The position numbers were made by a program, and so were the translations under genes. A DNA stretch of 44,700 bases from positions 1 through 44,700 of the forward strand of contig JAQBPV010000193.1 of assembly GCA_028287345.1 (NCBI GenBank). The letters are read 5' to 3'. Positions within the stretch are counted from its first letter, which is position 1; each line of letters opens with the position of its first letter. The notes under the pieces were generated by a model. It saw only the letters and a program-made list of their open reading frames with translations. It made no database searches and was not told the origin of the DNA. This document shows positions 32,199 through 37,140 of this stretch, piece by piece. The DNA is from Gemmatimonadota bacterium (GTDB taxonomy: Bacteria; Gemmatimonadota; Gemmatimonadetes; Gemmatimonadales; Gemmatimonadaceae).

Positions 32199-32235
32199 GA
32201 GAGAGAGCAGGTCCCGGTGGGACCTGCTCTCTCTC
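32199..32235. terminator. Bidirectional hairpin between panB and kamA
   Basis: GAGAGAGAGCAGGTCCC (32199-32215) pairs with its complement (32219-32235) in a 17-base-pair stem around GGT. It lies 13 bases past the kamA stop on the minus strand and 227 bases past panB on the plus strand. There is no clear T-tract in either direction. It probably ends kamA transcription and blocks convergent read-through. Confidence 0.7.
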
Positions 32236-32247
32236 TCTTCGCACCGC

Positions 32248-33444
32248 CTATCCGTTAGCGGATTTTCGATTTCGCGCCACGCGCTTCTTCTTCGCGGCCT
32301 TGCCGGCTTCGATCGGCACGACGTCCTTCTGTTCCGCCGCGATGCCGGGCATCTGCACGGGTATGGGCTGCTTCGGCTGCTTGTAGCTGAAGCGCTTACC
32401 CTCATAGTTGCGGAAGATCACTTCGTCGTCGGTGATCTCCTCGACGTACTCCGGTAGCAACGGCACCTTGCCACCGCCTCCGGGGGAGTCGATCACGAAC
32501 TGCGGCACCGCGAGGCCCGAGGTCCAGCCGCGCAGCGCCTGGATGATCTCGAGGCCCTTCTGGACCGTCGTGCGGAAGTGCTCGCCGCCCGCCACCTGGT
32601 CTGCCATATAGATGTAGTACGGCCGCACGCGCGCCTTGAGCAGCTCGTGCATCAGCTTCATCATCACGCGCGGATCGTCGTTCACACCCTTGAGCAGCAC
32701 CGTCTGGCAGCCGAGCGAAACGCCGGCGCGGCTGAGGCGGTCGAGTGAGGCGACTGCCGCAGGCGTCAGCTCGCTCGGGTGGTTGAAGTGCGTGTTCATG
32801 AAGATCGGGTGGTACTTCTGCACCATGTCGCAGAACTCGGGTGTGATGCGCTCCGGCAGGTGCGACGTGATGCGACTGCCCAAGCGGATGATCTCGATGT
32901 GCGGAATGGCGCGCAGCCGCTGGAAGATGTACTCCAGCCGGGCGTCGCTCAGCATCATCGGGTCGCCGCCCGAGAGAATGACGTCCCGAATCTCGGTGTG
33001 CTTCGCGAGATACTGGAACGCCGACTCGTACTCCTTGAGCGAGATCTTCTCCGGGTCGCCGACCTTGCGCCGCCGCGTGCAGAAGCGGCAGTAGCTGGCG
33101 CACACAGGGCTGACGAGGAAGAGGGCGCGGTCGGGATAGCGGTGCGTGATGTTCGGCACCGGGGAATCGCCGTCCTCGTCCAGTGAGTCGATCACGCCGT
33201 CGACGATCTCGAGCTCCTGGACGGAGGGAATGAACTGCTGCCAGTTCGCGTCCCCTACTTCCTTGATCTGTTCGAGCGATTCGCGCGTGATGCGCATCTG
33301 AAAGTTGTCGAAGGCCGGCTGCAGGGCCTCGACGTCGATCTCTCGCTCGGCGGCTTCCTCTCCAAACCGTTCGGCGACGTACGCCCGAAGCTGCTCGAGC
33401 GTGCTGATGCTGTCGTCGCGCAACGTCTTCTGCCAGTCACTCAT
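32248..33444 (-). CDS. kamA: Lysine 2,3-aminomutase (KamA-family radical SAM/PLP enzyme)
   Basis: The enzyme converts L-lysine to beta-lysine with an iron-sulfur cluster, S-adenosylmethionine and PLP. The 398-residue protein has the cluster motif CASYCRFC (Cys115, 119, 122), SGGDPMMLSD for SAM binding, NTHFNHPSEL, and PGGGGK with the PLP lysine at 326. By alignment from memory with the clostridial enzyme, the offsets are constant: Asp282 and Asp319 fall on the two aspartates that hold the lysine side-chain amine, and Arg124 on the carboxylate-binding Arg. This argues for lysine, not glutamate, as substrate. A Lys-rich tail (KAAKKKRVARNRK) is extra. The start overlaps the GNAT stop (ATGA). It is the last gene of the operon. 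An EpmB-type role in EF-P modification is less likely given the neighbours and length. Confidence 0.9.
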   Translation of the reverse strand: MSDWQKTLRDDSISTLEQLRAYVAERFGEEAAEREIDVEALQPAFDNFQMRITRESLEQIKEVGDANWQQFIPSVQELEIVDGVIDSLDEDGDSPVPNITHRYPDRALFLVSPVCASYCRFCTRRRKVGDPEKISLKEYESAFQYLAKHTEIRDVILSGGDPMMLSDARLEYIFQRLRAIPHIEIIRLGSRITSHLPERITPEFCDMVQKYHPIFMNTHFNHPSELTPAAVASLDRLSRAGVSLGCQTVLLKGVNDDPRVMMKLMHELLKARVRPYYIYMADQVAGGEHFRTTVQKGLEIIQALRGWTSGLAVPQFVIDSPGGGGKVPLLPEYVEEITDDEVIFRNYEGKRFSYKQPKQPIPVQMPGIAAEQKDVVPIEAGKAAKKKRVARNRKSANG

Positions 33445-33986
33445 CGCGTGGCTACTCCGCCCTCTCGTGTGGTGAGGCGTGTGGTGAGGATGATCCGGTC
33501 GTCCGCTGGCGCGTAGAAGTCGCGCACGCGCGCCGCCTCGACGTATCCACCCCGTGCGTAGAACTCTCTCGTGTGTTCGTAGTCGGGCCGCGACGACGTC
33601 TCAACGACGAGCAGTCGTGCGGCGCGGCCTCCGAGCTCATGCTCGACCCACTGCACCAGCGCGCGTCCCGCTCCGCGTCCCTGCGCCGCGGGATCCACGG
33701 CGAGCCAGTACAGATCGTACGTCCCCTCGGTCGCTGGCGTCGGCCCGAAGCACGCGTAGCCGAGGAGGTGTTCACGTTCGTCGAATGCTCCGACAAATTC
33801 GTAATCGGGAATTGCAAGAGCAGGTCCCTCAGTAGCTGTGCTCCTGTCGGGACGACCGAAATTGTCGAACGTCTCATCAAAGAGCTCGAGCGCGACCGCG
33901 ACTTCATCCGAGGAGAATGCCGCCGTCGCGATGAGCAGCTCGCTCACGCGCGCGCGATCCGCGGGTCTGAGGGGTGCGAGTCGCAT
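33441..33986 (-). CDS. GNAT-family N-acetyltransferase
   Basis: The 181-residue protein has the acetyl-CoA-binding core of GNAT enzymes: strand 4 and motif A DLYWLAVDPAAQGRGAGRAL (Q/RxxGxG/A as QGRGAG), then VQWVEHELGGRAARLLVVET and motif B REFYARGGYVEAARVRDFY. The N-terminal half (ELFDETFDNFGRPD) would form the acceptor site. In the operon it lies 6 bases after the second ATP-grasp gene and overlaps kamA (ATGA). It is a candidate to acetylate beta-lysine or a beta-lysine-containing product. AblB, the known beta-lysine N6-acetyltransferase, is a GNAT enzyme found next to an aminomutase (AblA), but this protein does not obviously belong to AblB. Confidence 0.85.
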   Translation of the reverse strand: MRLAPLRPADRARVSELLIATAAFSSDEVAVALELFDETFDNFGRPDRSTATEGPALAIPDYEFVGAFDEREHLLGYACFGPTPATEGTYDLYWLAVDPAAQGRGAGRALVQWVEHELGGRAARLLVVETSSRPDYEHTREFYARGGYVEAARVRDFYAPADDRIILTTRLTTREGGVATR

Positions 33987-33992
33987 CAGTCG

Positions 33993-35048
33993 CTACGCTC
34001 CGCCTGCTGGAAAGAGATCGAGATCGGAGATCTTGGTGGCGACACCGGAGAGGCGCTGCGCCTTCTCCCACCGTTCAGCCGTGGTGCCGCCATCGCGCGA
34101 ACGCTGGAGACCGAGCTCGCAGATGCGCCGCACGAGCGAGCCGTACTCGATGCCGGCCACGCGCGCCATGCGGGCGAGTCCAGCGTCGGGCGAGATGTCG
34201 GGGTTCGCATTCACCTCGAGGATCCACGGGCGGCCGCGCTCGTCGATGCGAATGTCGACGCGGCCGTAACCGGTGCCGCCGACGATCCGCCATGCGGCCA
34301 CGGCGACCTTACGCAGCTGCGACGCGACACTCGCCGGGAGACGCGCGGGACAGCGCGGCGCGGAGCCCAGGTCTTCGTCACAGCCATCTTCCCACTTGGA
34401 CCGGTACGTCACGATGCGCCACATACCCTTGGGCATGTGGCCGAAGTCGATCTCGGCAATTGGAAGCACGGCGTCGCCGAGGATGCCGACGTTGACCTCG
34501 CGGCCTTCGACGTAACGCTGGACGAGCACCTCGTCCCACCGGTCGAGCATGACGCCGACGCGTTCGGTGAGCGCGCGAGTCGTGCGGACGACGGAGCGCT
34601 GCTCGATGCCGATCGACGCGTCTTCAGCCGCCGGCTTGCAGATGGCGGGGAAGCCGACCGCGGGAATGGCGCCGCCCCGACGGACCACGGCGAACTTCGG
34701 CACCGGGAGACCAGCGCGCTCCAAGGCCGCGTTCACGACGTGCTTTCGCAGCGTCACGGAGGTCGTCCAGCTCGAGCGGCCCGTGTACGGGAGCGAGAGC
34801 AATTCCAGCACGGAGATGACCGGCGGCTCCAGCGCGGCGACGCCGTCGATCGACTCGCAGAGGTTGAAGACGAGGTCGACGCGAGCGCGACGGAGCTTGT
34901 CGATCCACTTCGCGTCGGGATGCACGGGCAGGCGGACGATCTCGTTCCCCTCGCTGGCGAGCGAGGCTTCGATTGCCTGGACCGTGCCGATGATGAGCTG
35001 GTCGGGCGACGCCGCGCTCGCGCCGTCGAAAAGGATGCCGATCTTCAC
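33993..35048 (-). CDS. ATP-grasp ligase, D-Ala-D-Ala ligase-like (second of the operon)
   Basis: The 351-residue protein begins VKIGILFDGASAASPDQLII at a GTG that overlaps the upstream ATP-grasp stop (GTGA). It shows the three-domain Ddl layout: FNLCESIDGVAALEPPVISV with LSLPYTGRSSWTTSVTLRKH (Ddl-like start), ATP-binding lysine segment FPAICKPAAEDASIGIEQRS, adenine-binding VLVQRYVEGREVNVGILGD, and metal-binding end GRVDIRIDERGRPWILEVNANPD (Asp, Glu, Asn; quoted in pieces GRVDIRIDERG and ILEVNANPDIS). ATP-grasp enzymes activate a carboxylate as acyl phosphate and join it to an amine. Relative to true Ddl the substrate loop differs (CDEDLGSAPRCPA), so D-Ala is not assured. The operon context points to a beta-lysine-containing product. 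Confidence 0.85.
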   Translation of the reverse strand: MKIGILFDGASAASPDQLIIGTVQAIEASLASEGNEIVRLPVHPDAKWIDKLRRARVDLVFNLCESIDGVAALEPPVISVLELLSLPYTGRSSWTTSVTLRKHVVNAALERAGLPVPKFAVVRRGGAIPAVGFPAICKPAAEDASIGIEQRSVVRTTRALTERVGVMLDRWDEVLVQRYVEGREVNVGILGDAVLPIAEIDFGHMPKGMWRIVTYRSKWEDGCDEDLGSAPRCPARLPASVASQLRKVAVAAWRIVGGTGYGRVDIRIDERGRPWILEVNANPDISPDAGLARMARVAGIEYGSLVRRICELGLQRSRDGGTTAERWEKAQRLSGVATKISDLDLFPAGGA

Positions 35049-36166
35049 GAGGCGCTCCCGTCGAGGGCGACGCCCTGACGGTCGGCGGCAGCGACGAGGC
35101 ACGCGCCGATCAAGCCGTCATAGCTGAGTCCAGCCGCGCGCGCCGCCTTGGGCAGGCACGAATTGTCGGCGACGTCGGGAAGAATACCAGGCAGCGGATT
35201 GACCTCGACGATATTGGCCCGCCCGTTCGCGTCGAGACGGACGTCGACGCGCGACCAGTCACGGCAGCCGAGCGCGTGATAGGCGCGCAGCACGACGTTC
35301 TCGATCTCGGCGCGGAGGCTGGCGCTGATCTTTGCCGGGCAGGAGAAGATGTCGAGTGGATTCTCGGGGCGATCCCACAGCCACTTCGCCTCGAAGCCGT
35401 AGATGGGCAGCGCGCCCGCCGGCAGCGACGCGAAGTTCATTCCGACGATGGGAAGGACCTGCGCACTCCCGCCGTTGCCGAGCACGCCGCAGGTGAACTC
35501 GGCGCCGGGAAGAAAGGTCTCGACGATCACTGGCTGGTCATAACGCTCGAGCAGATCGAGCACCACCGGGCCGAGGGAATCGGCAGACGAGACGAAGTTC
35601 TTCTCGGTGATTCCCTTGGACGATCCCTCGTGCACCGGCTTGGCGAACAGCGGGAGAGCCGGCATCGCAGAGGCGAGCGCGCGGAGATCTTCGCTGTTGC
35701 GGACGAGCCACCAGTCAGCCGTGGGGACTCCGTGCGCGCGGAGAATCTCCTTGGTGCGCGCCTTGTCGAGGCAGAGCGCGAGTGTGAACGGGTCGCTGCC
35801 GGAGTAGGGGACGCCGTAGAACTCGCAGATGGCGGGGACGTGCGCTTCGCGATTGGGCCCGCGAAGTCCTTCGGCGATGTTGAAGACGATGTCGGGTCGC
35901 GCGTCGCGGAGGGTCTGCGGGAAGTCGTCGGTGGCTTCGAGGCGAATGACGTCGCCGTAACGGGCGAGGGCGCTGGCGACGGCGTCGATGGTTTCGCGTG
36001 AGTCCCACTCGGCGTACTCGTCGTCGGGCGCGGCGGCCGGAGCGACGAGGGTGGCGAGGCCGCTGCCGCTACTGGGCGGCTCCTCGTCGGGGCGCGCCAG
36101 CTCGGCCGCGCTTTCCGCGGCAATGGGCTCAGGCTTTTGATTGTACGCGAAACCGATGCGCGTCAT
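35045..36166 (-). CDS. ATP-grasp ligase, D-Ala-D-Ala ligase-like (first of the operon)
   Basis: The 373-residue protein begins MTRIGFAYNQKPEPIAAESA. After a flexible Pro/Glu/Ala segment (residues 20-55) it has the Ddl-type modules FNIAEGLRGPNREAHVPAIC, FYGVPYSGSDPFTLALCLDK, the ATP-binding LFAKPVHEGSSKGI, VIVETFLPGAEFTCGVLGN and the metal-binding end DWSRVDVRLDANGRANIVEV then NPLPGI. It differs clearly from the downstream ATP-grasp (about a quarter identical by eye), so the two are unlikely to be redundant and may add two successive residues. The start at 36166 is supported by GGGATGGG upstream and by the loss of sense further out. It is the first gene of the four-gene operon; a promoter and palindrome lie in 36167-36363. 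Confidence 0.85.
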   Translation of the reverse strand: MTRIGFAYNQKPEPIAAESAAELARPDEEPPSSGSGLATLVAPAAAPDDEYAEWDSRETIDAVASALARYGDVIRLEATDDFPQTLRDARPDIVFNIAEGLRGPNREAHVPAICEFYGVPYSGSDPFTLALCLDKARTKEILRAHGVPTADWWLVRNSEDLRALASAMPALPLFAKPVHEGSSKGITEKNFVSSADSLGPVVLDLLERYDQPVIVETFLPGAEFTCGVLGNGGSAQVLPIVGMNFASLPAGALPIYGFEAKWLWDRPENPLDIFSCPAKISASLRAEIENVVLRAYHALGCRDWSRVDVRLDANGRANIVEVNPLPGILPDVADNSCLPKAARAAGLSYDGLIGACLVAAADRQGVALDGSAS

Positions 36167-36244: not shown

Positions 36245-36260
36245 CGCCTTGGCCAAGGCG
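36245..36260. promoter_or_regulatory. Perfect 16-bp palindrome upstream of the ATP-grasp/KamA operon
   Basis: CGCCTTGGCCAAGGCG is self-complementary over all 16 bases. It lies 78 bases upstream of the first ATG of the operon and downstream of the promoter-like pair at 36313-36341, where a repressor would block elongation. It could also be a hairpin in the RNA, but it has no loop, which favours a DNA-binding site. Confidence 0.45.
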
Positions 36261-36363: not shown

Positions 36364-37140
36364 TCAGACTTTGTGGTAGCTGATCTTCGCCGCTTCGCGA
36401 CGATCGGTCGCCTCGTAAATCTCGAAGTCGGAGAAGAAGGCTGGCGCCTCGGCGGTGAGCACGCGGAGTACGGTGACGGCCATGCGGCGAATCTCGAGCT
36501 CGGCGCCTTCGCTGGAGCGGAGCTCGAGCATCGTGCGCCATGCGCGCGCATTGCCGGTGACGACGATCTTCGTCTCCGTCGAGTTGGGGAGGACGCCGCG
36601 TGCGGCTTCGCGAGCCATCTTCCGGCGGTGGACCTTGTCGGCCACCCAGCCGTAGCGCTCCATGAGCTGCGTCACGAGCGCGACGTAGGCGCCCTGCGCG
36701 CTCTCGATCTGCGTGCGCCACGCACTCTCGAGGAGCTCGTCGCCGGCAATGGCCGGCGGGACGACGAAGCACGCCTCGCTCTCGTCGACGTACCGCTGTG
36801 AGAGCTGCGAGTAGGCGAAGCCCGCCCGGTGGCGCACCAGCTCGTGCGTGAGCGAGCGGCTCACGCCCTCGAGGAGCAGCGAGTAGTTCGCGTGCTCGAG
36901 GACGCTGCCGTGTCCCTGCTTCTTGATGTTCTCGAGGTAGTCGCGTGTCGAGCGGTTCGCCGGATTGTGCTGGCTCATGTAGCAGAGCCGTCCGGCGAAC
37001 TCGGCGAGCCGCTCACCATCGGTGCTCTCACCCTGCCAGTGCACGGGCAGGTGCTCGGGCGTATTGAACGCGGGATGCGAGAGCACGGTGACTTTCGGCT
37101 CGTAAAACAGGCGCGGAGCGGAGGGAGCGGCAGCAGTCAT
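36364..37140 (-). CDS. thyX: Flavin-dependent thymidylate synthase
   Basis: ThyX makes dTMP from dUMP with methylene-tetrahydrofolate and reduced FAD. The 258-residue product has the signature RHRAGFAYSQLSQRY (RHR-x7-S), the substrate segment STETKIVVTGNARAWRTML and ELRSSEGAELEIRRMAV, and the helical core LEHANYSLLLEGVSRSLTHE. The length is normal. Nothing suggests a functional link to the neighbouring operon, apart from the common strand. A 124-base gap separates it from the upstream oxidase gene on the same strand (37141-37264), with a T-rich promoter-like region but no gene. Confidence 0.95.
   Translation of the reverse strand: MTAAAPSAPRLFYEPKVTVLSHPAFNTPEHLPVHWQGESTDGERLAEFAGRLCYMSQHNPANRSTRDYLENIKKQGHGSVLEHANYSLLLEGVSRSLTHELVRHRAGFAYSQLSQRYVDESEACFVVPPAIAGDELLESAWRTQIESAQGAYVALVTQLMERYGWVADKVHRRKMAREAARGVLPNSTETKIVVTGNARAWRTMLELRSSEGAELEIRRMAVTVLRVLTAEAPAFFSDFEIYEATDRREAAKISYHKV

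Follow-up and report, generated by a model that had tools for sequence, protein, structure and literature searches.

Several described systems resemble parts of the gene set considered here. In the AblA/AblB pathway to N-epsilon-acetyl-beta-lysine, a gene for a KamA-type lysine aminomutase stands beside a gene for a GNAT acetyltransferase. In blasticidin S biosynthesis, the aminomutase gene blsG lies near a gene for an ATP-dependent carboxylate-amine ligase. The synthesis of N-acetylglutaminylglutamine amide uses a GNAT and an ATP-grasp enzyme to make a capped peptide solute. The locus studied here lies on contig JAQBPV010000193.1 of a Gemmatimonadota bacterium (assembly GCA_028287345.1), in a stretch of 44,700 nucleotides that is called the window below. 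Its minus strand carries genes for two ligases, ATP-grasp 1 and ATP-grasp 2, a GNAT and a KamA. How does this set compare with the known systems? Compared with AblA/AblB, it has two extra ligases, its GNAT is, in the comparisons made, unlike AblB and its KamA scores under the AblA cut-off. BlsG differs in its arginine-type residues (D/T), and its neighbouring ligase belongs to the LAL_C2 family and is not Ddl-like. Both ligases of the window have the fold and the ATP/Mg residues of D-alanine-D-alanine ligase (Ddl), but the active-site Tyr is replaced, the scores are under the Ddl cut-offs and a true Ddl is encoded elsewhere in the genome. Compared with N-acetylglutaminylglutamine amide synthesis, the aminomutase is found only here, the GNAT is a separate protein and no asparagine-synthase-like gene was identified (no direct test was made).

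Judged from sequence, the four genes probably make up a complete pathway whose product is a small peptide containing beta-lysine. This reading draws on how often KamA and ATP-grasp 1 occur together and side by side, the fusion of the two ligases in some genomes, the lysine-type residues of KamA, which is the sole match of its kind in most of the genomes compared, the kept ATP/Mg residues and lost Ddl Tyr of the ligases, the true Ddl elsewhere, the fusion or clustering of the GNAT with a deacetylase-like domain, and the reordered clusters found elsewhere; blsG beside its ligase gives an analogous precedent for the pairing of aminomutase and ligase. The original prediction is upheld in part: a coupled pathway, a lysine-type KamA and non-Ddl ligases are supported. 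In PMC3543383, ablA/ablB of P. carbinolicus are proposed as osmolyte genes; the ATP-grasp gene in PMC4001038 is a pyruvate phosphate dikinase and unrelated. The open-access literature covered yielded no description of the four-gene set. Each enzyme type is known, and the combination appears to be new.

The gene set and its distribution

Reading along the minus strand, ATP-grasp 1 (35045..36166, 373 residues, start ATG at 36166) is followed by ATP-grasp 2 (33993..35048, 351 residues, start GTG at 35048), the GNAT (33441..33986, 181 residues) and KamA (32248..33444, 398 residues), a radical S-adenosylmethionine and pyridoxal 5'-phosphate (PLP) aminomutase. The longest open reading frames (ORFs) of the two ligases begin upstream, at 36256 and 35102, and the starts given here are those conserved in alignments with relatives. 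Pfam and NCBIfam assignments match the naming of all four ORFs. The three junctions, as predicted and as read again from the sequence, are tight: a GTGA overlap between the ligases, a gap of six bases (CGACTG) before the GNAT, and an ATGA overlap between the GNAT and KamA. The four genes are a real, coupled unit.

Are the genes conserved together, a point whose failure would have refuted the original prediction? They are. Among 298 Gemmatimonadota genomes, ATP-grasp 1 is found in 95 at a score of at least 344 bits (the next match has 286 bits) and KamA in 85 at a score of at least 393 bits. Both are found in 83 genomes, and in 81 of these they lie on the same contig, 1.1-2.0 kb apart. Only two of the 203 genomes lacking ATP-grasp 1 have KamA, and in one of them, G207, KamA lies 259 bases from a contig end. 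The Fisher p for this co-occurrence is 9e-58, a value that ignores shared ancestry. Scanning with ATP-grasp 1 yielded 40 separate loci from Gemmatimonadota, Bacteroidetes, UBA2214, Riflebacteria, Desulfuromonas, Lentisphaerae, Kiloniellaceae and planctomycetes, and all four genes stand in the window order in 25 of them. The GNAT was undetected in five, and KamA is missing at a contig end in one. L033 has ATP-grasp 1 and KamA only, L034 a different order, L035-L038 the order KamA, ATP-grasp 1, ATP-grasp 2, and L039-L041 only a distant ATP-grasp.

Matches to ATP-grasp 1 were also counted in the phyla of Kuenenia (69 of 294 genomes at E 1e-60 or better, 57 at a score of at least 299 bits), Kiloniellaceae (19 of 398, E 1e-75) and Desulfuromonas (103 of 297, E 1e-75). 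As the scores there are lower than in Gemmatimonadota, the neighbourhoods were checked. The resulting set holds 115 loci from several phyla, distinct, long enough to read and all picked via ATP-grasp 1, with L001, L202 (the same place as L034) and L039-L041 left aside. KamA is found in 98 of them, ATP-grasp 2 in 97 and the GNAT in 66. By group, KamA is present in 30/35 Gemmatimonadota, 29/34 planctomycete, 18/19 Pseudomonadota, 17/23 Desulfuromonas-phylum and 4/4 other loci. The core is KamA with ATP-grasp 1; ATP-grasp 2 and the GNAT are less uniformly found. Similar clusters in other phyla have reordered genes: KamA comes last in Gemmatimonadota and first in many planctomycetes and Pseudomonadota. 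In L138 and L176 the ligases are fused into a single ORF, which in both loci matches Dala_Dala_lig_C twice, and in L177 there is an ORF equal in length to the fused one of L176. KamA was not seen in the stretches examined of L176 and L177.

The enzymes and the explanations they allow

KamA aligns over its full length with the solved lysine 2,3-aminomutase 2a5h (E 1.1e-102). Its R124, D282, D319 and K326 align on R134, D293, D330 and K337, the substrate and PLP residues of that enzyme, of which the two aspartates hold the lysine side chain. The equivalence named in the original prediction is thus borne out, and the iron-sulphur cysteines, the PLP Lys, the Arg and both substrate-pocket Asp are present. 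Among 98 cluster KamAs, the window included, the four residues are kept in 97, 95, 96 and 96 sequences, the rest being gaps, so that every sequence with a letter at the aligned place keeps the residue. Both Asp are kept in 11 of 16 comparators, among them EpmB, enzymes of the AblA type and one of a KamA-like type, and the pair is absent in the other five, including the arginine enzyme BlsG. Since the pair is common to EpmB and other KamA types, it argues for a lysine side chain and not for free lysine specifically. KamA scores over the general KamA family cut-off and under those of all specific NCBIfam models. It is the sole KamA match in the window genome and in 9 of 12 genomes, Desulfuromonas genomes having several.

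The likeness to blasticidin S genes raises the question of whether the pathway yields a secreted compound that is bioactive or binds metals. There blsG stands beside both its ligase and an MFS transporter gene, and on plasmid pTHIMO01 of Thioflavicoccus mobilis (L218, 5814-9038) genes for a KamA and a Ddl-like ligase lie by SbnA-like, ornithine-cyclodeaminase-like and diaminobutyrate transaminase genes, a diaminopropionate/diaminobutyrate setting that makes this cluster a possible diamino-acid peptide variant. However, the wide, phylum-level distribution of the set, the absence of a visible dedicated exporter beside the window genes and the different ATP-grasp family of the blsG-linked ligase make a secreted product unlikely.

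For the GNAT, the best solved relative is chain 2r7h (E 1.1e-27), named by its depositors a putative D-alanine N-acetyltransferase; it may come from a Desulfovibrio cluster, D. alaskensis G20 being a possible carrier. The AblB model gave no match to the GNAT at E 1e-3, and BLASTP against AblB of B. velezensis gave E 0.89; on these comparisons the GNAT is not AblB-like. This bears on the possibility that KamA and the GNAT alone make N-epsilon-acetyl-beta-lysine in the manner of AblA/AblB, with the ligases as unrelated neighbours. KamA does resemble AblA, and ablA/ablB pairs, seen in B. velezensis and Peptoclostridium, are a known solute pathway. But the score of KamA with the AblA model TIGR03820 is 414.6 bits, under the curated cut-off of 525.4, the GNAT is without an AblB match, and KamA is more constant with ATP-grasp 1 than with the GNAT, so this explanation is improbable. 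The same GNAT family points to another partner in some lineages. In L034 and L172 the GNAT is preceded, in the same protein, by a region that contains a domain of the histone deacetylase (HDAC) family; among solved structures this domain is most like acetylpolyamine amidohydrolases. An amidohydrolase-like gene lies within the cluster in L115, L133, L178 and L181.

Both ligases give Ddl-fold models (mean pLDDT, the predicted local distance difference test, 85-87), and their nearest solved fold is Ddl. The ATP/Mg residues of ATP-grasp 1 (K135, K176, R306, D308, E321, N323) are kept in 117/117 relatives; those of ATP-grasp 2 are kept too, with E278 being Asp in 12/98. Fold and residues together place both among the ATP-grasp enzymes, and the two carboxylate-amine ligases of the prediction are distinct from the Ddl of the cell. 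The active-site Tyr of Ddl (Y216 in E. coli) is replaced in both. At its place ATP-grasp 2 has W219, a Trp in 97/97 relatives, and the relatives of ATP-grasp 1 (n=116) have Trp in 53, Glu in 36, Arg in 22 and others in five, with no Tyr. Among the matches listed (the best 25 of 34 and 25 of 37), both ligases are under every Ddl cut-off, and a separate gene elsewhere in the window genome is over it. The lost Tyr and the separate true Ddl argue for ligases of another specificity. The flexible segment suspected in ATP-grasp 1 is also supported: residues 15-47 (36026..36124, minus strand) have pLDDT < 50, and the length of the segment differs among relatives.

Could the ligases instead modify the cell wall, for example by forming a D-Ala-D-X terminus or a cross-bridge of beta-lysine? 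Among solved proteins, Ddl and Van-type ligases are the closest to them. Yet no relative with a letter at the Tyr place keeps the Tyr, the listed Ddl cut-offs are not reached while a true Ddl is at hand, and wall genes adjoin the cluster in only some loci (no systematic search was made), so a role in the wall has little probability.

A last candidate target is elongation factor P (EF-P), since EpmB is related to KamA and shares these residues; the original prediction would have been refuted by a KamA acting there. The EF-P tip reads TPGNLRA, with Asn for Lys, in Gemmatimonadota genomes G010, G013, G025 (of which G309 is a repeat) and G071, and TPGN also stands at the tip in those genomes of Bacteroidetes and planctomycetes that were read. 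G301 and G303 retain the tip Lys; G299 has two copies, with Arg and Asn. EpmA is over its cut-off in one of 15 genomes, G301, where a KamA (EpmB), EpmA and an EF-P piece lie together on contig C62 and the cluster lies apart on C37. In G303, sub-threshold EpmA pieces adjoin EF-P. No EF-P turned up in the window genome or in G016 and G428, and four EF-P rows are without a tip in the alignment. EpmA over the cut-off together with a tip Lys is seen only in G301. With Asn at the tip in the four Gemmatimonadota genomes and EpmA under the cut-off in 14/15 genomes, EF-P is an unlikely target in this group. That KamA serves EF-P beta-lysylation is hardly credible, the only EpmA genome carrying a separate EpmB-EpmA-EF-P set away from the contig of the cluster.

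Neighbouring genes and other features

A thyX-like gene (36364-37140) lies just upstream of ATP-grasp 1 on the same strand. It is the same neighbour in most Gemmatimonadota loci first surveyed and is not seen in the other-phylum loci of the 40-locus survey. Directly past KamA, in the gap to a convergent panB-like gene, is a hairpin (32199..32235) with a perfect 17-bp stem and a 3-base loop (fold -47 kcal/mol, z -7.6). It may mark the end of transcription; as it is without a T-run, the terminator scan did not call it. The promoter scan gave no match, and the Rfam scan gave no riboswitch in 7 sources (143,853 bases).

No conserved transporter was seen adjoining the genes, in a neighbour clustering that was noisy. 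In this clustering, by all-against-all BLAST, the leading families proved to be ORFs antisense to the cluster genes themselves, the remaining ones were mostly of one phylum, and no general partner was found. A lysine/alanine-rich histone-like partner was considered and rejected: the scan gave only two ORFs near clusters (L181, L183), both peptidoglycan-binding-like by eye. The amidohydrolase-like partner was likewise not borne out as a general component, its full-length form being found in 1/298 Gemmatimonadota genomes.

Individual loci have further neighbours. Between ATP-grasp 1 and KamA in L167-L171 stand genes for a histidine kinase and a sigma-54 activator (identified by Pfam in L167 alone), which hints at regulated expression. 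A CstA-family transporter gene (Pfam) is divergent from KamA in L195 (3505-5565), and ORFs in L204 and L138 resemble it by eye. A CxxCxxCC or DUF3109-type cysteine protein gene lies beside or inside the cluster in 12/34 planctomycete loci, by Pfam in L109 (6083-6664), L121 (9384-10082) and L136 (4485-5054) and by similarity in the others, L139 only by its own query. Cluster-adjacent ORFs in L028 (11663-12610) and L182 (2088-3050) share a WEWEYD-type motif by eye; the one in L182 is weakly like sugar-transfer ATP-grasp, below the cut-off, and is perhaps a third ligase. On a Sinorhizobium americanum plasmid (L222, 4953-7412), a KamA with D/C residues adjoins a LAL_C2-type ATP-grasp ligase; the two form a comparable pair of aminomutase and ligase, from a different family.

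The proposed pathway and its meaning

In the peptide pathway that we favour, KamA would convert L-lysine to beta-lysine, as its residues and homology suggest. ATP-grasp 1, its constant partner, would turn a carboxylate into an acyl phosphate that is then joined to an amine; one of the two partners is most likely beta-lysine, either free or acetylated. ATP-grasp 2, where present, may add a second bond or unit, as co-occurrence and fusion suggest, and the GNAT would acetylate an amino group, most likely that of the beta-lysine side chain. In some lineages the amidohydrolase-like domain could strip the acetyl, comparable to protect-ligate-deprotect chemistry. The product is probably retained by the cell, and the leading but weakly supported guess for its role is that of a solute or stress metabolite.

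Several observations weigh against this reading. Twelve of the 95 genomes with ATP-grasp 1 have no KamA match, including the single contigs G125, G158 and G184, so ATP-grasp 1 can work without KamA; and in L132 and L134 the ligases adjoin a class-V aminotransferase instead of KamA, so that, with the KamA-less genomes, the ligases may have other partners. The GNAT was detected in no more than 66 of the 115 loci, a low count that comes partly from profile limits. At the profile thresholds used, KamA and ATP-grasp 1 stand alone in nine loci (L033, L193, L195, L198-L201, L203, L204), not counting L037 (frame-broken), L138 (fused) and L115 (deacetylase-bearing), which were also on the two-gene list. 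The Asp pair of KamA is no private mark of the cluster, given its presence in EpmB and other types, and in a tree that is small and has poor support, and from which two of the 27 rows chosen were left out, the cluster KamAs fall into more than one clade. Neither a riboswitch nor a transporter backs a solute role. Finally, the window genome has no amidohydrolase-like partner at E 1e-30, and the one Gemmatimonadota genome matching both the amidohydrolase and the GNAT parts, G187, has this match on a different contig from its cluster; this domain is thus accessory.

A broader claim, which we hold only tentatively and lean against, is that of a new class of intracellular beta-lysine peptides made by KamA and paired Ddl-like ligases, with reversible acetylation by GNAT and HDAC-family enzymes, as a general metabolite across Gemmatimonadota, Planctomycetota, Pseudomonadota and the Desulfuromonas phylum at least. 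The four-enzyme system is well defined and open to expression and assay. If the pathway is real, it would be a new bacterial route for beta-lysine use, carried by a considerable fraction of the genomes sampled in several environmental phyla, and it may account for an unseen metabolite of soil and sediment bacteria. The link between the GNAT and HDAC-family enzymes in the pathway, if true, would also give some bacterial deacetylase-like proteins a small-molecule role.

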